Source of the DNA: Caenorhabditis elegans
Taxonomy: Eukaryota > Nematoda > Chromadorea > Rhabditida > Rhabditidae
Direction: 5' to 3'
Assembly (NCBI RefSeq): GCF_000002985.6
Contig: NC_003279.8
Coordinates: 10,416,001-10,480,000, forward strand
DNA length: 64,000 nucleotides
Below are positions 1 to 45,893 of this stretch, one piece after another. The translations under genes and the position numbers were made by a program. Under the pieces are notes generated by a model, which ran no database searches, was not told the origin of the DNA, and was given only the letters and a program-made list of their open reading frames with translations. How positions within the stretch are numbered: position 1 is the stretch's first letter; each line of letters starts with the position of its first letter.

Positions 1-1958
1 TTGCCAGAATTGAAATTTCCGGCAAATCGGCAAATTGACGGAATTGAAATTTCCCGATTTGCCGTAATTGAAAATTTCCGGCAAATCGGCAAACCGGCAA
101 CTTGCCGGAATTGAAATTTCCCGATTTGCCGTAATTGAAAATTTCCGGCAAATCGGCAAACCGGCAACTTGCCGGAATTGAAATTTCCCGATTTGCCGGA
201 ATTGAAACTTCCGGCAAATCGGCAAACCGACAGCTTGCCGGAATTGAAATTTCCCGATTTGCCGAAATTGAAATTTCCGGCAAATCGGCAAACCGGCAAA
301 GTGCCGAATTTGTCGAAATTGAAAATTTCCAGCAAATCGGCAAATCGGCAAGTTGCCAGAATTGAAATTTCCGGCAAATCGGTAAATTGACGGAATTGAA
401 ATTTCCAGCAAATCGGCAAATCGGCAAATTGCCAGAATTGAAATTTCCGGCAAATCGGCAAATTGACGGAATTGAAATTTCCCGATTTGCCGTAATTGAA
501 AATTTCCGGCAAATCGGCAGAACGCAACTTGCCAGAATTGAAATTTCCGGCAAATCGGCAAACCGGCAGCTTGCCGGAATTGAAATTTCCCGATTTGCCG
601 TAATTGAAAATTTCCGGCAAATCGGCAAACCGGCAGCTTACCGGAATTGAAATTTCCCGATTTGCCAGAATTGAAATTTCCAGCAAATCGGCAAATCGGC
701 AAATTGCCAGAATTGAAATTTCCGGCAAATCGGCAAATTGACGGAATTGAAATTTCCCGATTTGCCGTAATTGAAAATTTCCGGCAAATCGGCAAACCGG
801 CAACTTGCCGGAATTGAAATTTCTGGCAAATCGGCAGACAGGCAAAATGCCGAACTTGTCGAAATTGATAATTTCCAGCAAATCGACAAATCGGCAAATT
901 GCCAGAATTGAAATTTCCGGCAAATCGGCAGACAGGCGAAATGCCGAACTTGTCGAAATTGATAATTTCCAGCAAATCGGCAAATCGGCAAATTGACGGA
1001 ATTGAAATTTCCCGATTTGCCGTAATTGAAAATTTCCGGCAAATCGGCAAACCGGCAGCTTGCCGGAATTGAAATTTCCCGATTTACCAGAATTGAAATT
1101 TCCGGCAAATCGGCAAATTGACGGAATTGAAATTTCCGGCAAATCGGCAAATTGACGGAATTGAAATTTCCCGATTTGCCGTAATTGAAAATTTCCGGCA
1201 AATCGGCAAACCGGCAGCTTGCCGGAATTGAAATTTCCCGATTTGCCAGAATTGAAATTTCCGGCAAATCGGCAAACCGGCAGCTTGCCGGAATTGAAAT
1301 TTCCCGATTTGCCGTAATTGAAAATTTCCGGCAAATCGGCAAACCGGCAGCTTACCGGAATTGAAATTTCCCGATTTGCCAGAATTGAAATTTCCGGCAA
1401 ATCGGCAGCTTGCCGGGATTGAAATTTCCCGATTTGCCAGAATTGAAACTTCCGGCAAATCGGCAAACCGGCAGCTTGCCGGGATTGAAATTTCCCGATT
1501 TGCCGTAATTGAAAATTTCCGGCAAATCGGCAAACCGGCAACTTGCCGGAATTGAAATTTCTGGCAAATCGGCAGACAGGCAAAATGCCGAACTTGTCGA
1601 AATTGATAATTTCCAGCAAATCGGCAAATCGGCAAATTGCCAGAATTGAAATTTCCGGCAAATCGGCAAATTGACGGAATTGAAATTTCCCGATTTGCCG
1701 TAATTGAAAATTTCCGGCAAATCGGCAAACCGGCAACTTGCCGGAATTGAAATTTCTGGCAAATCGGCAGACAGGCAAAATGCCGAACTTGTCGAAATTG
1801 ATAATTTCCAGCAAATCGACAAATCGGCAAATTGCCAGAATTGAAATTTCCGGCAAATCGGCAGACAGGCAAAATGCCGAACTTGTCGAAATTGATAATT
1901 TCCAGCAAATCGACAAATCGGCAAATTGCCAGAATTGAAATTTCCGGCAAATCGGCAC
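1..1958. repeat. Satellite-like tandem array of AATTGAAA-TTTCC units
   Basis: The stretch is built from three kinds of subunit of about 24, 34 and 43 bp. Each begins AATTGAAATTTCC or AATTGAAAATTTCC and continues with runs of GGCAAATCGG or its inverse CGATTTGCCG. Subunits alternate in a loose higher-order pattern of roughly 67 bp. Because GGCAAATCGGCAA and TTGCCGATTTGCC both occur, the array can pair with itself. It is open at the left window edge, so its full length is unknown. Long open frames on both strands are by-products of low stop-codon content. A diverged scrap of the same motif lies at about 2132-2185. Confidence 0.93.
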
Positions 1959-2487
1959 TTTTTTTTTGGTAAATTCAGAATTTAACTTTCAAAATTGTAC
2001 GCATCCTATCAATGTTACTATATCTATTTTGAAAAATAAGCTAATTCTATGAAAATATCGAGAAAAATCTGAGAAAATTTCCAAAAAGGCAGTTTGAAGT
2101 GTTTCCGTCTGATAAAATATCCCTCTAAACATTTCCGGCAAACGTCAAATCGGCAAATTGCCAATTTGTCGAACTGCAATTGCCGCCCACCCCTGATTCA
2201 TATTTTCAAAGTGGTTGGAGCAATGTCATGAACGACTGCTAAAACACTGTATTTAATGATTGAATTTGGCAAAAAACTGCCAATAAATATACTATAAATA
2301 ATTGAGGTATGGTGGACAGCATTCGGAGGGGGCCAAAAGATGGGGGCTATATAAAACATGAAAACTTTGCAATAAATTTACTCGGGGGGAAAAATAATAA
2401 ATAAGTTATGCGGGGGGGGGTGCAAAAATTCACAGGAAAATAGTGGGGGAGATTGGTGGCGATGGTGGGAGATTGATTGGCAGTCAA
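1959..2487. other. Non-coding interval, 3' flank of the MAP1-like gene
   Basis: There is no convincing gene here. The interval holds a diverged scrap of the neighbouring satellite motif (about 2132-2185), a poly-G tract near 2410, and presumably the 3' UTR of the minus-strand gene that stops at 2488. Confidence 0.6.
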
Positions 2488-5400
2488 TTAAAGCAAATCG
2501 ACTCTGGCCAAATCATACTCAACGACTCCGGCGTCCGAGCTCACTGTCGTCCGCTGCTTCTCCACGGGCATTGAAAACTGCAGATGATTCGCGGCGAATT
2601 GCTCCTCGTTCTTCTGGCGGAAATCGTGCAGCATCGGAGAGGAATGTGTTGGGATCACGTTGCATGGATGAGCTGAAAAATAATTTATAAAACTTGCCAA
2701 ATTTGAGAATGAGCTTACCACGATCACACCATGTTTGCTTTCCTCTGAGAATCGACTGCAGCTGCTCTCCGGAGATTTCCTTCGACGCGAGGATCACATT
2801 TCTCGAGCGCACCTTTGAGATGAACTCTTGCAGACCGTCTGCTTCAACGGAGGTCTCCAATTTCTCGTTCCTTGGCACTGTGACCACGTCGAAATAGTAT
2901 GGACGCGCGAATTTGACTGGCTTCGCTGAGGCGACGGATCCTGGAGCAGCTGGCATGTGGAGATTTTCTGGATGAGAGGCATCGATCTGGAAAATTAAAT
3001 TTTACATTGAAATTAAATATATTTTCTAATGTTTTCGGTGAAAATACATGTAATTACTCTTGAAATTCTTTTTCAAGAATAAATACACAGATTCCCTCCA
3101 TGATCAGGCTTGATCAGTTAGGAATGATTTTAAAGAATGTGAGTTTTTGGAAATTGTTCCTTTTTGTACAAATTTTCATTTTTTTTTGTTCCTCATAGAA
3201 ATCACAATTTTTCAATTTACGTTCAAAATATCGGTTAATCCTAACAGAAAACGGTTTTTCTGAACTTTTAAACATATTAAACTACCTGTTCACTCTCCTG
3301 TGCACATGCATTGAGTACAGCATCCAATGCTGGATCAGTCTTCTCGTACTTTACAGCAGCTCCATTCTCAATCACATTGGAGTGCGACTGCATCAAATCA
3401 TGCTTCGGAATCTTGATTCCTCCATTTTGTGCTGCATGTGCTTGTTCCCCGTGGCCGTTCGTTTCCGATCCGTTCGAGGTAACAATGCTGCTGGCAAGTG
3501 CACTGGTGAATGGCAGAGTGGCGTCCTCAATCATCTGATTGCTCAGCTTTCGCACATACTCATCCGTCTTCTCGTCGAGAGCCAGATTCTGAAGTTCTGC
3601 CGACAACTGAGTGACTTCTCCAACGGCCTTGGCAAGATCCGCTGCAACTTCAGCGCTGTTAGTATCCATGCTGATGTCAACTAATTTGGACACATCTTCA
3701 TTGAATTCGGCAAGAGTGCCATCGTCACGTGGAGCTTGGGGGATCAGTGGTTCCTGAAAATTAAATAATTTTGAAAATTGAGAGTGAAATTTGAAAATTT
3801 CAAGCATTTTTTGGATAGAAAAGTGAGTTCATTTGCATGCTGAAAAATAACAATTTTGGGATATTTTACCTCAAACCCAGGAGCAATCTTCTCCAGTTCA
3901 TCATCCAACTTCACAAGACCATCATTTGGTCCCTTTGGTGATGGAGGAATGAATGGAACAGCAGCAACAATGTTCGGGAGCTCTGGATCAGGAGTAGCGA
4001 TGATCAAATCACCACTTGGCACAACTGGTGCAGATGGGTCGGGGTGTGATGGCTTCAGTGGATCGAAATCGTCCAGCTCGACTGGATCCGGCTTCTTGAA
4101 AGCATCGACTGGCTCTGAAATCCTGTCTTCCCCGGAACCGCCAGCAACATTCGTCTCTGGACGTGGCTCTGGCTTCTTGAACGCGTCAACTGGTGGCGGA
4201 ATTTCGTCTTCGACGTCAGCCAGATTTGCGACATCATCGACTTCATGTGGAGCCTGAAATATACCGATTCACCATGACAATACCACAATATTAATACAAA
4301 AATCTAATTACACAGACATCAACGACATAGAAATGCATCAAAAACTAGATATATTCAGTGAAAAATTGAAATATATTTTCGGTTTCTGTGTCAAAAGTTC
4401 TTATCACCTTCGCCAAGTCCTCGGCGTCAACTATCGGTTCCTTTGGATGCGTGGCTCGAGCCTCTTCAAGACGTGGTGGTTCCGGTGTTGGTGGAATCAC
4501 GACAATATCCATTGGAGCCGATCCTTGGTTGAAATCTTCTGGAAACAGCGAGTCGTCGAGAACGATGGTGACGTCGTTCGGATCCTGAAATGAAACACAC
4601 CACTGCTAAGCGAAAAAGGAAAAGCAGAGGACTAGAGATCTACCGATCGGAATGAAAGAAATCAACTTACCCTTCGAGAAGCTTCTGGAGCTGTAGCTGG
4701 AGCCGATGATGTCGAAGCTGGAGCTGTAGCTTTTGGAGCTGAGACCGCCGAAGCAGGCTTCGATGGAGCGGCTCTTTGAACTTTGCCAGCGACTTTCTTC
4801 TGAGCGATAGGCTCGGCCTTGGGTGCCTTCGCAGGGGCTCCTCTTGGTGGCGCTGGTGCAGATCTCGCTGGAATTGGAGCTCTAGTCGGAGCCTTCGATG
4901 CTGGAGCGGCCTTCGGTGGTGCAGTTGCTCTCGGTGGAACGGCAGTTCTGGTAGCAGGAGTTGCACTTCGTGTAGTCGTCGGACGAGCTGGGCCTGCTGG
5001 AGCACGAGAAGTCAACGCTCTGGGGGCACTGACTGCAGGGACTGCTGGACGAGTTCTTGCGGCGCCGGTTGTAGATGCAGATCTAGTAGACGGTTTCCCG
5101 GCAACAGGTCGTGGAACGGCAGGAGCAGGAATACCCAACAACGCATCCTTCGACTTCACGGTGGGCGCGTTGAGGAATGGAAGTGATTTCGCTGCCTTGT
5201 CGAGCGATTGTTGGATCCTCGCAAGTGAGCTCGTCCCCGAAATAAGCACTCTGACCGCCGATTGATCCGTCATCGCAGGCCTCCAGAGCAGGACGCCGAT
5301 GGTTCCATTCTCAGCGGCCGCCTTCTCCACTTCTGCCTCGTTTCCTCCTGCCAACGCCTTTGTGATCATATCGGAGTCTTTGACGTCTCCAGCCAGAATA

Positions 5401-5858
5401 TACATGGAGAGAACTCCTTTTGCAGCAGACTGGTATATGATGTGTGCCGGATATTTCGGGTTGAACAGTGGCGGTGCAACGGAGAGAAGCTTCGAGTTCG
5501 CTTCTTGAATTGCTTTGGCAATCTCTCCACTGCTTCCCGGCTTGGCAGTCTTGAACGGCTTCGTGTTGGTGAACACCGGCAACGGTTTTCCCTGAAAAAG
5601 TAGATTATCAAAATTTTCATTAAAAATTCTACAAACCTGTTCCAACAGAGCAGACGTGGTTCCAAGATTTCCCAGCGTCGGAGCGGCGAGCAGAACGGCA
5701 GAGACGTCCCTGACGTGAGCCACAAATCCCGGGTTCTTTTCGGCGAACCCCCCATCGAGAATGTAGACGCCGTCGAAATCAAACAGGGCGGCCGTGTTGG
5801 CCGCACCGCCCAAGACGTAGATGCACGCCTTTGACGACATGATATATTCCTCCGGCAT
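2488..5858 (-). CDS. MAP1-family microtubule-associated protein (maph-1 type)
   Basis: Exons on the minus strand: 5858-5637, 5591-4671, 4584-4408, 4253-3870, 3753-3286, 2986-2719 and 2672-2488. All junctions are GT-AG and keep phase, and the first intron is only 45 bp. The N-terminal ~130 residues (VLGGAANTAALFDFDGVYIL and on) resemble the conserved N-terminal domain of MAP1A/B/S. The middle is a long Ala/Pro/Thr/Lys-rich basic linker, as in microtubule-binding regions. The C-terminus, from KFARPYYFDVVTVPRN through VIPTHSS to the end, matches the MAP1 light-chain domain. The protein should bind and stabilise microtubules. The start ATG directly follows a TTTTTTCCAG acceptor, so it may be trans-spliced there, or an upstream exon may exist; vertebrate homologues have more sequence before this point. 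It belongs to the worm maph-1 family, but I cannot say which member. Confidence 0.88.
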
Positions 5859-7186
5859 CTGGAAAAAATGTTCTTTTCAAGAGTTTTAAACGCGTATACG
5901 TATAAAATGAAAGACAACGCTGAAGGATTAAATTATGGCGAATTTTATGCCAAAATAATTACAAAAACCCTAATTTCGGAGTTTTTCGCGCTTTTCTGTA
6001 GACTTAAGTTCATTTTTCAACCATATTAGCGACTAAAAATGTTCAAAAACTAATCAAAAATGTGAAATAAACGACAAAATTATAGGGAAAATGCAAAAGC
6101 TTCTTGGCTGCTGACAAAATTGAAGATTTTTAGGATTTACAAAAAAAAAAAGGTTTCAGTGGGCGGTGCCAACTCGCAACCACCGCACGCTCATTTCGCA
6201 AGCCTCGCACGTTTTTTCGGTGATCTTTTTAAATACCTTTTTTCAAGAAAAAACGAGCGAGAATAAACAAATAAACAAATAAACAAAAACGAGAGAGAAA
6301 AACACGAATGAGCTCTCTCGCCGCCTTATATAGCGCGGTGAGAGACGCAGAGAATGCAGTTAAATCAGAATACGACCGCTGCCGCCGTGGGTCAAGATCA
6401 CTAGTGATATCAGTCTCTTCCTTGTTTGATCTACCAGTAGAAGGGCTGAGCGCCTGCGATTGGCGGATTTTTTTCATTTTTAACTTTTTCAATGTCGCTG
6501 AATCAATACGCCACTTCTATTGGAAGCTAGTATTTCTGGTTATTTTTAGATTAGGTTTGAGTCTTGTAGTGCTCCAAAAAATCAAAATCTTTTAAAATAC
6601 ACTTAGTCATCATTCCGATAATATCGATGTTGTCAATTATTTCGCTTCTGTTCATTACGTTCCATGATATTTCGATTTTTCATCAATTGATTTTGGAAGA
6701 GAAAACACTACTGCTCCATATTCTAAACGAAGGCGTACGAAAGTTTTATATGTATAAGAATATCGCTAGTTTCAGATTGGAGGAAAGTACATTTAACAAG
6801 GGATCAAAATTCTCTTATCCGCAATAGTCTACAAAAAACAGATTTTTCAGGAATTCCGAAATATTCTGCCTGCCAACAAAATAATACTATGTTATGTTAA
6901 CAAGATGCTTCATTTCATGTTTCAAATAAAGATCACAATTAATCCATCATTTAGAAGTCATCTTTTGATTTTTCCGTAGTACCTAAAAGATGTATTAAAG
7001 TTTTAATTTAAGAGTAAGTTTACTTGAATTTGATGGCCGAATTCATAAAGTTGTTTTGAGACGTTGCTTCTTCTCTTGCAATTTTGTAGGTTTCCTAAAA
7101 TTTGTTTTCGTTTTGGTATTGTTTAGTTTTAATTTGAGACTCGTCAATTTTACAATAATACATTTTGATGGAAATATGACCTAAAA
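5859..7186. promoter_or_regulatory. Intergenic interval upstream of the MAP1-like gene
   Basis: This 1.3 kb separates the 5' end of the MAP1-like gene from the 3' end of the GPCR-like gene. It contains an (AAATAAAC)n-like tract near 6265-6290, a TATATA stretch near 6329 and a locally GC-richer block at about 6150-6420. Short open frames are present but lack splice or homology support. The block probably contains the promoter of the minus-strand gene. Confidence 0.45.
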
Positions 7187-10100
7187 TTATTCTGATTGAC
7201 TTTTCAAAATTGAAAGTACTGGGTTTCTTTTCAAAACTCTAGCTTCAAAGGAAATACCCTTCAGGCTACGAAAATATAATACCTTATCAATTTCATTATT
7301 AAATCTCTTTCTGTCAATATCATCAGCATCATCATAGTACTCTTCTGGTTTGAAAACATCGATTCCGGGGACTAGCATAAATTTGGTCACTCTTGCAGTT
7401 CCATCCTCTTTTTCTGCACATAGAGTCACAACTTCACTCTTTGCATTGGTTCCCAATAAATCATTTCTTGGTGGTCGTTCAGCGACTGATTTCACAAATT
7501 CCGCAAATGTTTCTTGGAGTTGTTCTTTTTGAAATTGAGTTCCAGCCAAATCATGATGCTTCTTTATCTCAGTTCGCAGAATTTCCAGTAAACCAGCAGA
7601 GACATCCAGTCCTGCTTCCAATTTCTGATTGAGAATCAAATCCCATTTGTGATGTAGGAATAATCTTTTATTCAATGGAAGCATTTGTTGTTTCATTATT
7701 TCTTGTTGTTCTTTTGGAAGCTTTTGAATTTCTTTCACTTCCTCACGAGTCCACATGGAAATCGGATCATAGGATGGAGCAAATCGAGCAGGAAACTTTT
7801 TCATCGCGAGCCATAGAATAGAGGACCAACACTAAATAATGGTATAGTATCATTTAGGGATTTCATGACTATGTTCTACTCGACGTATGTACTACGCCTG
7901 CCTACAAGGTACGCCTGCCTACAAGGCGATCAATGCCGTTTTGCGCAAATATGCCTTCCAGGCGATCTATCTTTGTTTGCTAACACGACCTACGCCGGTC
8001 TTCCTGCTTACATTCTAGGTGACCTGAGCATGCCTACTTGCCTACCTACACCTTCAAGGCGACTCAAACCTGAGTGTAGAGACAAAAGAGTCTGGAACAA
8101 CTTACATTTGGATCCGTGTAGAGTCCTTGGACAAAACTGAATACTCCATAAATGATTCCCACGAGTGTGAGAACCCTGAAATATTGACTTTTGAGAATTG
8201 AATTCATTGGAACCTCACCATCCATAAATTCCTTTGCTCCGTTTATCCGCGGCTAGAATGGTCAGGAGCCACGTTGCAGACAGAAGAGAAACTCCAATAA
8301 AACATAAAACTGTATTTCTTCGGCACTTTTCGGCAACCCAACCATCAATGACTCCCTCCTTATGTTCGATTCGTTGTCGAATTTTCAGATTGTACAAGGG
8401 ACGGCGACTGAAATTATATATGGTTGTCCATGCTTTCATATGTGAAATTTCATATCAAAGCTTCCAATTTTTCGCCGAAAATTAGGATTATTTTTTCAGC
8501 TTCAAACAAGTTTCAGATACCAATTTTTGATAAAACTAGAAGCCAAACCGAGATATTGTTTAGCTATAAATATGATTTTCTAATTTATTTCACCGTATTC
8601 AACCAAACATTTCACATAAAGCCAACGGCAACAATAACTGTGTTTGTTAAAGTTCTAGGTGCATTAATATAGTTCACTTTTTTTTTACTTTTTGATTAAA
8701 ACACTGGATTCTGCAAATGTTGCCGTAGAGACAACAATACAAAGAACAATCCATATTGCTGATAACCAAACTGAAGTTGTTTCATTGCAAATCACACCAA
8801 CGCATGTCCATGTTGAAGGAAGTTGATTCCAGTCTGTTATCAATTATTGAAATTTGGAGAAAGCCTCTAAAAATCTTACTTGATTGAAAAAGGACACCCA
8901 GTGCTACTGCCAATAAAAGCAATGGTACAACCATTCGTGGAGCAACCATTATACCCCATGCTCTTCTACATTCAAAATCTCGTTCCCATTCATTTAGATG
9001 AACACATCGAACCACTTGATTTGCATTATATCCTTCTAGCATCCACTGGATCATTGCTGGAATTTTTTGTGGTTTTTTGTTAGGTTTCGTAGAACACCGA
9101 AAAAAAAATTGGAAATTTTTCAAAATTGAAACGTTTCCGAAAAAAAAAAATGAAATTTTAGATTTTTTTCGAAAATCACAAGAGAAAAATTTACAAAAAT
9201 AATTGCTCCAAAATTTTTCAAAAATAAAAAATTTGTAAAGTCAACAAACAACAAACAAAACATTTTCTATTACTTTTTGAAAATAATTTGAAAAAAATGA
9301 ATAGATTTTTCGATTTTCAGGAAAAAAACAGAATCTTCGACCCATCAATATTTCATCGAAATATCATTATGAACTTTTACCGCACCCTGTACAGTAATCC
9401 CACAGTACACCTCCAACCTTCACAAGAAAAGTTACCTCCAATGAAACAAAAATGTATAACGATAAAGAACATCCGACACGTGGCTTGTGAGATTTTGAAC
9501 ATATACGGATCGTTGAAAAAGAGTACGCAGGATGTGCCGAGAGTCAATAAAAATGATCGAGCCGTTTGATGAGTTTCTTGTGGATCCTGAACTTAGTCTT
9601 GGTAAAATAACATAGATTAAATTATCCCATACATCTTCTCCATTCGACAAGTAAATTTTTCCAACAGATTTAACACCGATCAGGAGCACTGTCGAAGAAC
9701 AGGACACGAGAGAATTGATAGTCGGAGAATCGAAAATATAATTTCCAAAACGAGTGAAAAATGAGTCAGTTGTATTTGTGACTCGATCCTTATTCACTTC
9801 ACAATGTTCGCCCTCGTATCCCCAGTAACAGTCACATTTCACATCTTCTACGTAATCATAACACTTTCCATGACCATTACATGTAGTTGGAGTGCAAGCA
9901 TCAGGAGTGTACCAGCAGGTGCTCATCTGAAACATTGAACAGTTACCAAAAATAGCTTCTTTTTTATCTTGAAAATACTAAATAGTTGATGTAATTCGTT
10001 AAACTTTGAAAACAACAGCTACAGTGTCTGCCAATAGTAAATGCGTTTTGGTGTCACACTTTTCAATTGAACGTAACTCAAAAACTAATAAATTTTGCAA

Positions 10101-13026
10101 AAAGGCTTCAACTAACAAACTATTGCTCAAAACTTTGCCTATATTTTTGCAGTTATCAAATGGTTATCGCCTCCACTCCGGAAAAAGTTGGAGCGGCTGA
10201 CGTCTTGCGGGTTCAGTTTTGTCACTGGACCGTTTCAAGAGAAATCGTCAAAAATTAGCTCGTAACATGTCAGCCGCTCCACCTTTTTTTTTTGAAACGG
10301 AGCAGGTAATTATTTGTAAACTGGAAAAATTTAGAAACATTTATGGTTAACGATTTATCTGTTGACGATTTTTGCAACACTTATTAGTTATTCTAAACTT
10401 TTGAAAAATCTCCAAAACCCAAAAAACTGATATGTATGTATAATACTTTTGGTTTTTTTGAACCACAGAAAATTTGCAAGACAAAAAAAATGCAAAGTAC
10501 ACGTATAACTTACAGAATATTTAGGCTTGCAATGACATTGATAGGCATAATTTCCATCTGCATCAACTGTTGTCTCACAGAAGTCAGTTCCACGAGTAAA
10601 ACACATAGCGCAACTAGAGACAAAATCAGACGTTGTATTTGCAAGCTTCTGAGCAACACCTTCTGCTGCAAAATGTACTAGAATTGTGTGATATGCTCAC
10701 TCGGTGTGTTCACCTGCACAACTGATAGTTGTTGGACTTGGCATTATATTTCCACGTGTTCCACATGAGACAGTTGTAATTGATTTTGTGTAGGAGCATG
10801 TTAGGCTGAAAATGTTTGGTTTAAAAATTTGTTTTTTATAAAATAATTTTTGATAAAATTAAACCTTGCAGTGGAAGTAGTATCAATTGTTTCTTTTGAT
10901 GAAGAGAGAATTGAGTTGAGTTCGAGGATGTTTAGAGCAGTTTCCACGTAGCATTTGGATATGTTACAGTATTCTGAAATTTTCTCAATTATTAAACACA
11001 TACCTAGGTACAGCTGTTAATGTTGAAATTTTCTAGAAACCCACGTGGAAGAACACATATCGCTGAAACATTCGTCGTAGTGTCAGATATCCCCACTGTC
11101 ATTGCAATTGGAGATGTCATGGCTGTTAATTGGGTAATATCAAGTACTTGAGCTTTTTTGTTGAGCCGCTCTTGCACAGATCCTCCTCCGTTTGCAAAAT
11201 AGAACGACGTGGATTGAATTGATGAACTTTTTGAGCGAAGAGTTTGAAGATCATTGAGATCTCGAAGATTCTCAAGAAAGATCAGGTTCCGAAGATTGAC
11301 TGTTTGGCAGTAAGAAAGAGCTGATTGATAGGACTTGATGTCAGATAGTTCGGCAAAGTAGTAGCACATTGTTTCACCTGCAACATATCCATCAGGACAT
11401 TGCACCGAACAAGATGGATCTCTAGTGGTGGATATCACAGTCGTGGTGGTAGAAGAATCTGGAGTTTCTGAAGACGAGGTGGAATATGGAGTGCTTGAAG
11501 TTGAAGCTGTAGACTGGGTAGATGACAAAGATGAACTTATTTTAGAAGTAGTAGTACTTGAAATTATATCTTCAGCTTTTGCGTGCTCAGTCCAAGGTGC
11601 AGTTGACGAATCTGTGTTTTTTGACGATGTCGAAGGCTGTGAGGTGGAGCTGGAACTAGTAGATCCTGATGAAGCAGGAGATGAAGATTTTACGGTACTG
11701 CTTGCGAGGGTTGCTGAAGTCGAATGAATTGGAGTTTGGCTTGAAGTTGCAGTGGATTTTGCTGTGGAGAATGTTGTATTATCCTGTATTGCAGTACTTG
11801 ATGATGTCGGTGATACGGTGGTTGACTCAGTTCTTGTTGAAATGTAGGTTGATTTTTGATAGAAAACGAAACATCTCGGAAAACTGAAAATAAAAGAGAA
11901 CATAAGAAAAAATTAATGGAAAATAAATCTCTGAAACCCCTGAATTGCGGCATCGCAAATTTCAGCGAGCAATTTTTCTGTCGTTTCAGTAGCTCAAATA
12001 ATGTTTAGTGTACAGTAGCACTACCTGACTGTGCTAGAAGATAATCCTTTCTGTGTTGAAATCTTAATTGTGGGTGTCATAGGTGGTGAGGAGGGAGATG
12101 AGCTTTTGATTGTTGGGGACATTGAGCTAGATCTACAATTTCAGAGATTTAATTTCTGGATCATAAAGCTTTCAGTCTGAATTGGCATTACTTTTCTGTG
12201 CTTGAAATCGTCGATGTCCGAGTTGTGTTCAAATCACCAATAGTGGATGTTGTGGAGCCTTTGGCAGATGTTGAACTTGGTTGAGTTGAAGTAGATGGGG
12301 TTGACGGCAAGGATGTAGAGTGAGAGGATTGTGTAGCCAGTGGCACCTTAGAGAAAGTTGAAGTGACTTCAGAAGTTCCAGATGAGTTTCCAGTTGTTCT
12401 ACTTGAGATTTCTTTGGTGGAGCTGGTGATGGAGCTAGATGAGACCGTAATCGTAGCAGAAGTTGTTTCAAGATCTTTGTTGGATGTGGTGCTCGAAACC
12501 AAACTTTTGCTTGTTGGTAAGCTCTGCGAAGTAGATGACGATGATCTAGTGGACGTTTCATTTTTGGTCACAGTGGAAATTGAACTCCGCTTGGAAGATC
12601 CTACTGTCGTTGACGTTCCAAGACATGATGTTGAACATGTCGAACATCCACACAGAACTTCTTCCAATGTTTCACATTGCCCGCTTTTAGTATTTTTTAA
12701 TATATCGGACATAGTAGTGTTTTCTGCTGAAACACTTGTGAAAGTTGGGAGGAAAAAAAATTGTATTTTAGGAACTGCTAGATAAAAGATTACATGTATG
12801 TTTAGCCGTATTGTCCGATTTTTTTAAACTTAAATTATAACATTGAAGTATTGAAAAAATATTTGCTCTAAGACAACTTACGGAGCACAATATCAGAAGG
12901 TGTTGTTGTAGGAGTAGAAGGTTCAATTGGAATCGTATTCGTTGACATTCGATCAGTACTTTCTAGTTTTCCAAAGAAAACCAGCAAAATAATAGGAAAC
13001 ATGGAGAAAATATATTTGTTCCGCAT
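7187..13026 (-). CDS. Putative adhesion-GPCR-like protein: mucin / CTLD-like / EGF ectodomain plus 7 TM
   Basis: Exons: 13026-12882, 12726-12192, 12132-12025, 11883-11045, 10973-10865, 10805-10714, 10665-10514, 9926-9633, 9586-9436, 9056-8880, 8833-8689, 8407-8219, 8175-8106 and 7831-7187, about 1,216 residues. Phases agree throughout. The order is: signal peptide (MRNKYIFSMFPIILLVFFG); Ser/Thr-rich mucin-like region to about residue 415; a C-type-lectin-like segment (CPDGYVAGETMCYYF) at about 417-540; a Cys-rich segment; and an EGF module (CNGHGKC...CDCYWGYEGEHC) at about 665-705. Seven hydrophobic segments follow at about 730, 770, 800, 850, 890, 955 and 980. A Cys before TM3 (QATCRMFF) and one in the loop before TM5 (TWTCVGVIC) could form the usual disulfide. 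TM3 (IQWMLEGYNAN) and TM6-7 (SATWLLTIL, VFSFVQGLYTD) resemble adhesion receptors. The last exon gives a cytoplasmic tail of about 210 residues. No GPS/GAIN motif is visible. The weakest junction is exon 4 to 5. The symbol is unknown to me. Confidence 0.75.
7870..8075. repeat. Intronic repeat rich in GCCTGCCTAC and CAAGGCGA motifs
   Basis: Inside the last intron of the GPCR-like gene, variants of CTACGCCTGCCTACAAGG and CAAGGCGATC recur several times between about 7885 and 8065. Similar CCTAC-type words appear near 14693-14725 and 19390-19410, so this is probably a dispersed repeat rather than coding sequence. The open frame across it is not supported by splice signals. Confidence 0.55.
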
Positions 13027-13740: not shown

Positions 13741-16283
13741 ATGAATTTCGAACTTATTCTAGTTTCTCTAGCAACATGTATTTTATCTGTAAATGCAGAT
13801 TTTGTAAGTTTTCGTAATTAAAAAAAATTGATATATGTACATATTCGGATTTAAAAATCCCAAAAAACAAATAAAAATAGATTTTCAATTGTATTGTATT
13901 ATACAATACAATACAATACAATAGATGTTCAATAACATGCACAAGGTGTAATAGATCTTTAAAAATTAAGATGTGGAGCACTTCGAGCTAGAAAAAATTA
14001 GATCTGAAATTTTTCCAGTTTTGATAATTTTACGGATGACTAGGCTTTCTTTGATTTTTTTCCGTCCTTGAATGTCTGCAAAATCATCGTAGGATATTCT
14101 TTGAAAAATTCCGATTTTCCTTCAGCACGAGGAATGCCGTCAATCCCTCCGCGATGGACGTCTTCGTATCGAAACAGTTGCAGAAACTCTGGCATCTCGT
14201 GAAATCGATCGACTTGTCTCACTAATGTCTAACTCGAAAGATCAAATTAAGGGTTATAATGCAGAAAAATTGAATTACTCTCCAAAACTTCAAGATCTCA
14301 TCAAAATCCGAGATGATCAGCCACCATGTCCACAACCAAATGCAACAATGTTCACAACACCTACTACGCCGGCTGCACCCACAACGACTGCTGATCCAAC
14401 TACAGTTGCAGATGACACAACTACAGCTGGAGCAACCGATTCGAGCACATCTGGAGCATCGGATGCACCATCATCAACACCACCACCTCCACCGAAAATT
14501 TCTGACAAGAAGAAAAGATTCAGTCCAAGTAAAGTATATGTGACAAAGACAAAGGATATGGATCCTTTCTCCTGGTATATGAAGACTCTTCATGTAAGCT
14601 GAAATTATGACTTAGGAGGCTTAGGCTTAGGCTTTTTCCTATGTTTCGACTTAGGCTTAGACTTACGTGTTGGCATGGAGAATTGCATCGTGCCTACGAA
14701 CGCGTGTCTCACGCCTACCTGCCCTGTCTCTTCTCCGATACTCCTTCACAGGCTGTATATATATGTCTATTTTTCAGTACTACATGAAACGTGAATCAGA
14801 AGTTTGTAATAATCAAATCACCGATCTTAACTCCATCACCGAAGATCAACTTTTCGGATACTTCTCCACACTTGCTACTGCTCATCCAGGACCATTCTGT
14901 TCACTTTGTCATAGATTTGCCGAAGAAATTCATTCAAAAGTATTGAAACCAAATAGCCTTCTGATTACTGATGATGAATACCATATTTCACATCTTCTCT
15001 ACAATCATTTTCCAAAGCCAAAAGCAATTTGTACAGCTATTGCGCCGGGATGTGATGACGATTATGCAGCGAGGGGTAAGAGAAATCCGATAGAAATTGA
15101 AACTATTTTTCGATTTTTTATTCAGTTTTTGAAATTATTTTTCTAGAAAAAAATTATTGAAAAAAAAAATTATAAACTTCACGAAGAAGATCCTTCATGA
15201 AAAATTCAGCAGATGTTCTAAAATTTTAACTTTTTTCTAATTAAAACGTTTAAAACTAGATTTCAGATTTTTTTTAAACCCAAAGTTCGAAAAATCTCCC
15301 AAAAAATATTAAAATCATATATTTGGAAATTAAAGTTTAAAACAAAAATGTGTTTTGCATCAATCACATTTTTCCAGTGTTATGCTTTCGAAACATCACT
15401 TTAAAAATACATTATTACACAGTTGTTGTGAAGTTTACCGATGTTCCATTCAAAAATTTGGTCTCACCACGAAGACTTCACATTTTTCAGAATTTTGTAC
15501 GATTTAGCACGTTTTCAGAGAATTTCCTGATTTAACAAGAGAAAAAACGTTTAAAAAAATCGAAATAATTTTCGAATTGAGTTACTGTAGAATAAAGGCG
15601 CACACCTACAGTCTTGATTCGAGAATATTTTGTTCGTGGCGAGAGTTTTTAAGCAGAACCACAAAAAATTTCGCAACGTGGAATAATTTTCAATTTCAGT
15701 TCTAAACCTGACCGAATCAGTAGTCTGCCTGGAATGTACCGCCTGTATGTCCATCACAAATGTGCTTCAACATAAGATCTTCCTTCAACCAGCCATGCTT
15801 GATCAGACTTACTATTGGCTCCGCGGAAACCTTTTCCACAATTTGTGTGCTGAACTTTGTCTCGCATTCCAGGGATTAGATATTCCACTTTTCCCGCATG
15901 GATTTACTTATGACGGATGCCAGAATGTGATGAAAAAGAAGTTTTATCAGCTTATCGACGTTGCAACAGTTATCACTAGACCCGAAAGATTTTGCAGTTT
16001 GGAGCTTCAATGGTGTGAGCTCAATGAGCAGCCAAATGCACTTCATTGTCTACGAGAACTTTGTCAAGAGTGTGAGTTTTTCTCAACTAAAGATAAAAAT
16101 ATAAACGAAACCATTATTACAGATTTCAAAGATACTCCACAAACTCGTTGGCTTTGTAGTCAAATTCCAGATAGACCGGAGCAAGCAGATGCATTTTTAA
16201 ATATTCGACAAACGAAAGTGAAAAAAGAAAAGAAAGACTATCATATGGAATTCGAGAAAAGAAACCTTCACGATGAACTTTAG
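13741..16283 (+). CDS. Secreted cysteine-rich protein, possibly saposin-like
   Basis: Exons: 13741-13803, 14126-14593, 14778-15075, 15700-16071 and 16123-16283, giving about 453 residues with consistent phases. Exon 1 encodes a clean signal peptide (MNFELILVSLATCILSVNAD). A Thr/Pro/Ala-rich linker follows (ATMFTTPTTPAAPTTTADPT), likely O-glycosylated. Two Cys-rich helical stretches come next, one around PFCSLCHRFAEEI...ICTAIAPGC and one around VVCLECTACM...LCAELC...FCSLELQWC. Their spacing is reminiscent of saposin-like domains, but I regard that assignment as tentative. The C-terminus is Lys-rich. No transmembrane segment follows the signal peptide, so secretion is expected. It is transcribed away from the GPCR-like gene. 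Confidence 0.72.
14606..14665. repeat. Interstitial telomere-like TTAGGC repeats in an intron
   Basis: The second intron of the secreted Cys-rich gene contains several TTAGG-type words: GGCTTAGGCTTAGGC at about 14620-14634 and ACTTAGGCTTAGACTTA at about 14649-14665. TTAGGC is the nematode telomere unit. The copies are few and imperfect, as is common for interstitial telomeric sequence. Confidence 0.7.
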
Positions 16284-43624: not shown

Positions 43625-45893
43625 GAATGTATTGAATTGAATTGAGTTTATTTAACTAAAAGAAGAGAAATAAGCAAATAAAACGAGACGAACCCTAAAA
43701 GAGTTCAACTCGAGTAAAAGTTACAAAAAAAAACAAAAAGATAATAGGGAACAGGTGAAACGGGGAGAAAGACGAGAATGGAGGTAAAGTGTAGTTATAA
43801 TCGGGGGATGTTGAGATCAATAAATTCACAGAATTGATATGGGGACATAAAAACCGTAACATTTTTGAATAAATTGTTCCAGACTGGGATGATAAGAGCA
43901 AAGAAATGCGTGGAGCATTTGTCCTTCCTAACTAAAATCATTGGGTGCCTATTAGAACTAGAGAGAGTAACAAATTGTCTAAGGTTAGAAAAATGAGAGG
44001 TACCTGTTAACAGTCTATACAGTAGTTTCAATTACGCCTTAATTCTATTGTGTCTGGTGGAGTGGAGCTCCATTATACTGAGTCGATTTTCATAAGATGA
44101 GAATTTTGTATTGCATCTTTGAAGAACGCGCTTGGTAAAGTGCCTTAGAGGTTGTTCAAGTTTTGCTGAAAGCAATGAGTTTGAGGAGGGAGCATAGACT
44201 TCAGAGCAATAATTCATAATGGGAGCAACATACGTTTTATAAAGGTGGGCGTAGAACTTTGGGGAATTGGAGGAGAATGCTTTGAGAATTTGTTTGGACC
44301 TAAGCATGGCTAGACAACTAACTTTAACTATGTGGTGTTCAAACTTTAGCTTGCAATCAGTAATTAGACCTAAGTCTCGAACAGTAGAGGATGGGGTAAT
44401 GGGGACACAATCAACAGAATATGATTGGTTTTTGTTACGAGTGCCAAGAGCTAGCAACGCAGATTTAGTTGGAGCTAAAGGAAGTTCATTTAACTTGGAC
44501 CAACTAACTATAATATCAATGGAGTTTTGTATTATAGTAGGATCAGTGTGAAAAATTTTAACGTCATCAGCAAAACAGGAAATATTTATGGTGGGAGCTA
44601 GGTCAATCAATAAATCATTAATAAAAAGAATGAAAAGTAAAGGCCCTGAAACAGAGCCTTGTGGGACACCTGAAGAGATGGGATAGGAGTTTTTCGAAAC
44701 AAATTTGTTGATTTTAACGGAGAAAGTTCTGTTTTCAAGAAATTTCTTGTACCAGGAACAAGTTAAAGATTCGAGACCAAACTTAGCAAGTTTTCCTAAG
44801 AGAATGCTATGTGAAACTTTATCAAATGCCTTAGCAAAGTCGAAAAAGATGATATCGAGAGATTTTTCCTTCTTTAGAAGGGAATGGTAGAGAGAAACAG
44901 ATCGAACTAATGATGAAGGACAACTTCTGTAGTGGAGGAACCCATGTTGCTGGGGGGACAGAAGATGGCCAAAATCAGCGCGAATTCGAGAGCATATAAT
45001 ACGCTCCATAACACGAACAAAGGGGTCAGTGAGGCTTATCGGGCGGTAGTTGCTTGGGGAAGAAGGATTACCTTTTTTGGGTATTGGTATGATTATTGCC
45101 TTTTTCCAGCAGTCAGGGATTTTAGAATCGGCAAATGATTGTTTGTATATAATGGATAGAGGGAAAGCAAGAGGAGTAGCACATTTCTTGAGCACTAGAT
45201 ACTTGGCGCAGTGTGGGGAAAAACCACATTTAGGGGGAAGCTTAGACAATACGCTTTCAATCATATAAGGCTGAAATGAGTCTACATGAAGAGATGTGGA
45301 TGTTTGATTCTGAAGAGAGGAATGGGAAGTGGGTGAAGGACTATGTAGAGAATTTTTGAGACTGGCTGGAATCGTCAGAGTAGTGAGAGGCGAAGATTTT
45401 CGCAAAAATTTCGCTTTTCTCTGAATCATTGACAATGGATTTATTGTCAAGGACGATGGCTGGAACGCGATTTTGAGATTTGAGGCGACTATTGATAAGA
45501 CGCCTTATTTTGGTAAAATTAGAGTTGGCAATTATATCGTTTTCAAAACGGCGCACGTATTTTCTATAGTTCCGATAAAGTTTTCGGTATTTAGATTGCG
45601 CGGTTTTAATAATTTCAAATGTACATTTACGTGAAAGAATAAGCTTGCTTTTCTTGCTGATTCTATTCCTTAGGCGCTTCAGTTTTCGACGAATGTTGTG
45701 ATAAGGTGAAGGAGACTTAGAGACACTAATTGGCTTAGTGGGACAGTGTTGAGTAAGGAGGTTGTTAAGAATCGAAAGTAGGCGATCAAATTTATCCGAA
45801 ACAGATTTTTGAGAGCAGAATTCGAAGTCCCAGTTAACACGCGCAAGATCTCTGTTGAGGAGGGGGAAGTTGCATTTTTATAGTCAAACAAGG
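43625..45893 (-). mobile_element. 5'-truncated non-LTR retrotransposon, CR1-like
   Basis: Read on the minus strand, the element enters mid-ORF near 45893 with no endonuclease domain, continues through reverse transcriptase, and ends in a short tail of AATTCAATTCAAT repeats near 43625-43650. Loss of the 5' part and a microsatellite-like 3' tail are hallmarks of target-primed insertion. The reverse transcriptase blocks and the tail resemble CR1-like worm families, but I cannot name the family from sequence alone. A perfect 9-bp palindrome (TAGCAAATCGGAGATTTGCTA) lies just outside its 5' end. Confidence 0.82.
43795..45890 (-). pseudogene. Reverse transcriptase ORF of the retrotransposon, broken
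   Basis: The main open part is 45450-44032. Visible RT blocks are WKKAIIIPIPKKG, NYRPISLTDPFVRVMERII, DIIFFDFAKAFDKVSHSIL, SGVPQGSVSGPLLFILFIND and the catalytic ISCFADDVKIF at about 44560-44585. An upstream portion (45890 to about 45400; PLLNRDLARVNWDFEF, RFENDIIANSNFTKIRRLIN) is in another frame, which indicates one frameshift near 45400-45450. After a single in-frame stop at 44032 the same frame continues (LLYRLLTGTSHFSNLRQFV) to 43795. The copy is therefore inactive. In intact relatives the enzyme copies element RNA into the genome at a nicked target. Confidence 0.85.

Follow-up and report, generated by a model that had tools for sequence, protein, structure and literature searches.

A Caenorhabditis elegans gene for a mucin-like, lectin- and EGF-bearing seven-transmembrane protein with a possible remote likeness to class B receptors

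The window, by which we mean the whole 64-kb stretch of DNA at C1:10416001-10480000 that was analyzed, holds a real gene for what its sequence predicts to be a long protein with a mucin-like region, lectin-like and EGF parts and seven transmembrane segments (7TM). On the minus strand 16 exons join from an ATG at 13026 to a TGA at 6958 in one open frame of 1216 residues (Table 1), and every one of the 15 introns starts with a GT donor and closes with an AG acceptor, in compatible phases. This model, like that of the paralogue on C3 described below, was assembled by eye from splice signals and phase. The initial annotation had given 14 exons ending at 7187. That 3' end turned out to be a readthrough of the donor at 7283, by which the small exons at 7094-7024 and 6982-6958 were missed; by coincidence, the readthrough form also has 1216 residues. 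The annotation was thereby confirmed in its architecture and open frame and corrected at its 3' end: the signal peptide, Ser/Thr region, lectin-like segment, EGF module and long tail are all present in the translated model, in which the intracellular tail has 214 residues instead of the 210 first counted.

Table 1. Exons and domains of the window gene, and its paralogue (window positions unless another locus is given)
Feature	Position	Strand	Content and remarks
Exon 1	12882..13026	-	ATG at 13026; signal peptide (~residues 1-24) with hydropathy peak at residues 6-24; Ser/Thr region begins; donor GTAAGT
Exon 2	12192..12726	-	mucin-like, Ser/Thr-rich
Exon 3	12025..12132	-	mucin-like, Ser/Thr-rich
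Exon 4	11045..11883	-	remaining mucin-like region, then C-type-lectin-like domain; donor common to paralogue
Exon 5	10865..10973	-	Cys-containing segment
Exon 6	10714..10805	-	Cys-rich segment
Exon 7	10514..10665	-	Cys-rich, EGF-like module
Exon 8	9633..9926	-	EGF module, short linker, TM1; both ends common to paralogue
Exon 9	9436..9586	-	TM2, beginning of TM3 including the TM3 cysteine
Exon 10	8880..9056	-	end of TM3, post-TM3 loop, TM4
Exon 11	8689..8833	-	extracellular loop 2 with conserved TWTC, TM5
Exon 12	8219..8407	-	intracellular loop 3, TM6
Exon 13	8106..8175	-	TM7
Exon 14	7283..7831	-	intracellular tail; donor at 7283; both ends common to paralogue
Exon 15	7024..7094	-	tail; in phase; C-terminus matches that of paralogue
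Exon 16	6958..6982	-	final residues and TGA stop; in phase; C-terminus matches that of paralogue
Degenerate C-type-lectin-like domain (putative)	11046..11423	-	residues 417-542
EGF module	9801..9917	-	residues 664-702
TM1	9645..9728	-	~residues 727-754; weak hydropathy; coordinates from exon phase
Paralogue	C3, locus L029 1695-7579		13 exons, 1489 residues

A protein search of the whole genome gave at least 34 matches. Among those listed, one is a full relative, and the others fall on the exons of the gene itself, on EGF regions elsewhere and on two duplicates of the 3' end. The relative lies on C3 (10228340-10230863 for the part searched); it is longer than the window gene (1489 vs. 1216 residues) and has its parts in the identical order of signal peptide, Ser/Thr region, lectin-like, Cys-rich, EGF, 7TM and tail. 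From the lectin-like domain to the C-terminus 312 of 788 aligned positions (39.6%) are the same in both, and 8 of the window gene's 12 introns in this stretch are common in column and phase, leaving 4 of the 12, and 1 of the paralogue's 9, without counterpart. A paralogue of the same architecture with common introns gives the gene model strong support, beyond chance. The 7TM part is 42% and the tail 37% identical between the paralogues, which also share two motifs letter for letter, HLNEWERD after TM3 and EKCR ahead of TM6; the conservation of these motifs and of the tail suggests that cytoplasmic contacts have been kept. The name K07E12.2 was considered for the paralogue and dropped, as the parts of the literature checked do not carry it under that name. 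Downstream of the paralogue lies an array with a 164-base period (L029 21-1229), with seven listed frames of 74 amino acids.

The ectodomain begins with a mucin-like region of about 390 residues (26-416) with 53.5% Ser+Thr, and the corresponding region of the paralogue has 55.4% over 670 residues. For the lectin-like segment that follows, phmmer against the PDB returned 11 sequences at E<=10, 9 of them named as lectin-like, the best being lithostathine (E 0.0051 over 44 residues). In Foldseek, the listed 50 of 244 matches (E <10) were all C-type-lectin-like or complexes with such a protein, judged by title or recall, the best E among the matches listed being 0.45 and none below 0.001, with a poor single-sequence model as query (pLDDT 45.2). 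No Pfam model, Lectin_C included, matched the segment, and the motifs with which C-type lectins bind Ca2+ and sugar, EPN or QPD and WND, are absent from residues 417-542. Taken together, we take these residues as a putative degenerate C-type-lectin-like domain. The EGF module shows the six-cysteine EGF pattern, and a profile of both paralogues matches Notch EGFs (best E 2.8e-14), while Pfam gave sub-threshold EGF models only on this part. The Ser/Thr-rich, lectin-like and EGF parts make up a long modular ectodomain as in adhesion GPCRs. At the other end of the protein, the tail had no match in Pfam and a single, chance-level match in NCBIfam (E 0.052), and its single-sequence AlphaFold model (pLDDT 47) is too low for interpretation. 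TRAF-binding motifs were considered in the tail and dropped after inspection by eye only.

Hydropathy analysis (19-residue means, threshold 1.0) bore out the seven hydrophobic segments annotated in the 7TM part, TM1 (1.43) and TM2 (1.18) being weak; the same threshold also marks the signal peptide and two stretches of the lectin-like domain. The paralogue has the same seven segments, with TM5 split in two and with loop 2 and the lectin domain marked as well. TM3, TM6, TM7 and the two extracellular cysteines had been said to look like those of secretin/adhesion receptors. Pfam 7tm_2 gave no match to either paralogue at E<=10. Neither did any other Pfam 7TM family at this threshold, where matches that are very weak are mostly lost to the HMMER filters. 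A 7tm_2 search of the whole genome listed 11 places at E<=0.001, and neither gene is among them. Against the PDB, phmmer with a single 7TM sequence gave 0 matches and hmmsearch with the paralogue pair gave two at E<=10, neither significant: the PAT complex subunit Asterix (E 0.17) and adhesion receptor G1 (E 0.51), the latter with TM3 in register.

A remote signal was seen in profile-profile comparison. In hhalign the paralogue pair aligned with LAT-1, LAT-2, ADGRL2 and ADGRL3 at a score of 30.1 (P 0.0018, probability 15%), a signal carried by two query sequences and four templates. The alignment is in register, spans 200 columns (query 52-290, template 32-238) and runs from the end of TM1 as far as TM7. 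The rhodopsin-like class A alignment (3 sequences, TM1-TM5 only) and the Frizzled alignment (4 sequences) were not matched in this way, with scores of 11.3 over 13 columns and 15.1 over 11 columns. When the pair was shuffled, 30.1 was reached in 0 of 300 full-column and 0 of 300 within-10-column shuffles (maximum 29.9), and was exceeded in 2 of 300 within-6-column shuffles, which keep hydropathy (maximum 36.6). Single class B templates scored 16.7, 21.5, 22.1 and 28.2, the lowest of these inside the control range of 11.0-18.6, and three of the four alignments cover TM3 or TM2-TM3 only. The single controls scored 11.5-18.6 for class A (4 frames >=200 residues, from 8 loci), 14.3 for Frizzled (1 of 6 loci) and 11.0-14.9 for class C (4 of 4 loci), each being the longest open frame of its locus, from partial genes, which may not be the matching frame. 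For scale, class B scored 30.9 against Frizzled and 18.3 against class A; with the pair at 30.1 beside this 30.9, the family looks about as distant from latrophilins as Frizzled, as far as such scores can tell.

At the level of residues, the TM2 His, TM3 Cys, TM3 Glu and loop-2 Cys of both paralogues line up with LAT-1, LAT-2, ADGRL2 and ADGRL3, while the paralogue is without Gly after the TM3 Glu and the residues that are usual in class B TM5 and TM7 are not kept. Our results support, without proving it, a remote kinship between the 7TM bundle and class B receptors of the latrophilin type. Possibly, the bundle belongs to a 7TM family that has no kinship with GPCR class B and came to resemble it by convergence, as the 2 of 300 strict shuffles above the class B score and the absence of a significant Pfam or PDB sequence match would allow; the class B alignment is in register, though, where class A and Frizzled give only their short, low-scoring ones, and we consider convergence unlikely.

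The initial annotation further held that a GPS is absent and that the EGF module leads almost directly into TM1, and both points were borne out as far as the tests reach. The final EGF cysteine is residue 702 and TM1 starts at about 727, leaving about 24 residues between them in one exon; EGF and TM1 lie within one exon in both paralogues. A GAIN domain has about 300 residues, so there is no room for one in this gap. Across the whole genome, the Pfam GPS model PF01825 gave 7 places at E<=10, and neither paralogue is among them. It does mark sites immediately upstream of the two C2 genes that are strongest for 7tm_2, which we take to be lat-1 and lat-2, and lists nothing near the 7tm_2 place at C5:13031716, presumably fmi-1, which indicates that the model is imperfectly sensitive. 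One could still suppose a true adhesion GPCR with its GAIN/GPS hidden in missed exons, since an ectodomain of EGF plus mucin recalls the EGF-TM7 receptors, but the single exon for EGF and TM1 in both genes, the roughly 24 residues available in the window gene and the lack of a GPS match at either gene make the probability of this close to negligible. With no detectable GAIN/GPS, the protein has no access to the adhesion-GPCR mechanism of a cleaved tethered agonist and, as a 7tm_2 match is also missing, it cannot be classed among the adhesion GPCRs. The adhesion-GPCR-like interpretation is thus upheld as far as the protein is class-B-like, and fails on two defining tests.

To place the gene among those already named, we looked at its neighbours. 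A maph-1 copy adjoins it (window 4662-5876), one of 4 such places in the genome. Both the maph-1.1 start primer and guide occur in this copy, the guide being exact also at C1:14846508; the maph-1.1 reverse primer is exact only at C1:14849839 and has 1 mismatch at the other three copies, including that of the window. In published work, maph-1.1 is F32A7.5, maph-1.2 is F25D7.4 and maph-1.3 is C36A4.5. The reverse-primer match therefore assigns maph-1.1 (F32A7.5) to the other C1 copy, and the copy in the window to F25D7.4 or C36A4.5. C36A4 is presumably on chromosome III, and F25D7.1 we take to be the Derlin gene cup-2; the genome has a Derlin gene at C1:10399289-10400150, some 23 kb away from the window gene. 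With the maph-1 neighbour taken as F25D7.4, we took the window gene as F25D7.5 (paml-2), which from its position it most likely is.

Nikonorova et al. (2025) reportedly described PAML proteins as membrane C-type lectins that associate with polycystins and are sorted to ciliary vesicles. In a 2026 preprint F25D7.5 is named paml-2, and smFISH shows its expression in PVP as well as in the ray B and CEM neurons of males (PMC13081990). F25D7.5 also stands in the table of an apical-constriction screen with 0 (0/15) (PMC10081768). Another name that came up, H05L14.1, was wrong; the literature under it, as far as it was covered, concerns TDP-43. According to a 2026 review, the adhesion GPCRs of C. elegans number three, namely LAT-1, LAT-2 and FMI-1 (PMC13197933). 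The suggestion that the gene could be an overlooked member of that group was therefore half right: the review counts those three only, and the gene itself is most likely F25D7.5/paml-2 and already in print. The gene is thus known, and in our search, which covered the literature in part, no mention was found of a GPCR-like, or more exactly class-B-like, 7TM nature of the protein, under paml-2 or otherwise.

Taken together, we favour, with moderate confidence, a reading in which one gene, most likely paml-2 (F25D7.5), encodes a polycystin-associated 7TM surface receptor of cilia and ciliary vesicles, of a kind that has two paralogues in this genome. The protein would sit in ray B and CEM, ciliated sensory neurons of the male, where the mucin stalk may hold the lectin-like tip off the cilium, or off vesicles shed from it. 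The lectin/EGF part could then contact a putative surface or matrix ligand met during mating, while the 7TM and conserved tail might hold the receptor beside the polycystins (LOV-1/PKD-2), and would either relay the contact to G proteins or TRAF adaptors, as candidate partners, or sort the protein into vesicles. It is also possible, if clearly less probable, that the protein is a membrane-anchored lectin/mucin in which the 7TM serves as anchor and sorting signal only, an ex-GPCR that no longer signals and loads the lectin onto ciliary vesicles. The lost class B residues of TM5 and TM7 and the lack of GAIN/GPS would agree with this, as would the expression in vesicle-releasing neurons given in the preprint, if the gene is F25D7.5. 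Against it stands the conservation of 7TM and tail between the paralogues, including HLNEWERD and EKCR, although conservation alone fits signalling or sorting.

The receptor that we favour can be set beside several known systems. Like EGF-TM7 receptors (ADGRE) it has EGF, a mucin-like stretch and 7TM in one protein, but ADGRE have GAIN/GPS before TM1 and no lectin domain. With latrophilin-type receptors (LAT-1, LAT-2, ADGRL2, ADGRL3) it has the remote in-register 7TM profile, the TM3 Cys and Glu and the loop-2 Cys in common, and unlike them it has no GAIN/GPS, no Pfam 7tm_2 match and a different ectodomain. It resembles polycystin-1/LOV-1 in its large ectodomain; LOV-1 acts in male ciliated neurons and human PC1 has a C-type lectin domain, and both have 11 TM, GAIN/GPS and PLAT, which sets them apart. 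A further system is F25D7.5/paml-2, a PAML membrane lectin and most likely the same gene by position, with the male ray B and CEM expression printed for it in the preprint.

More tentatively still, and with lower confidence than in the anchor reading, the paralogue pair might found a separate GPCR branch at a Frizzled-like distance from latrophilins, in which GAIN was lost or never present and the EGF was set straight onto TM1. Such a GPCR-like partner of polycystins could carry a glycan-reading head on ciliary vesicles, so that lectin and 7TM-like functions that are joined in vertebrate polycystin-1 would be split over two proteins. If the class B reading is true, C. elegans would have two class-B-like proteins in addition to the three adhesion GPCRs of the 2026 review (PMC13197933) and, as both paralogues lack GAIN/GPS, they would reveal the workings of such a bundle when there is no tethered agonist. 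Should the gene be paml-2, a GPCR-like protein would lie beside the polycystins in mate-sensing, vesicle-shedding neurons, which is directly testable by gene editing.

The 3' end of the gene has been duplicated together with neighbouring DNA. The final two exons (window 6893-7104) are copied at 96% identity at C3:3849366-3849570 and C4:3326951-3327155, and a shorter copy (90%) lies at C1:10242618-10242749. The C3 and C4 copies adjoin maph-1 copies, which points to a segmental duplication carrying the 3' end of the gene, and capture of the two exons by a mobile element was rejected on the same ground. Near the C4 duplicate there is a large inverted repeat of about 1.7 kb, 89.6% self-complementary (L048 1052-2716). 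A minisatellite-like tract fills window 1-1990, with a repeating peptide in several frames, and its motif recurs in the C3 and C4 duplicates. On the plus strand at 14105-16280, neighbouring frames have a Thr/Pro-rich stretch and cysteines, and two of these frames scanned against Pfam gave no match at E<=0.01. On the minus strand at 44035-45504, a match to Pfam RVT_1 (E 3.5e-36) marks a fragment of a reverse transcriptase, which is probably what is left of a retroelement.
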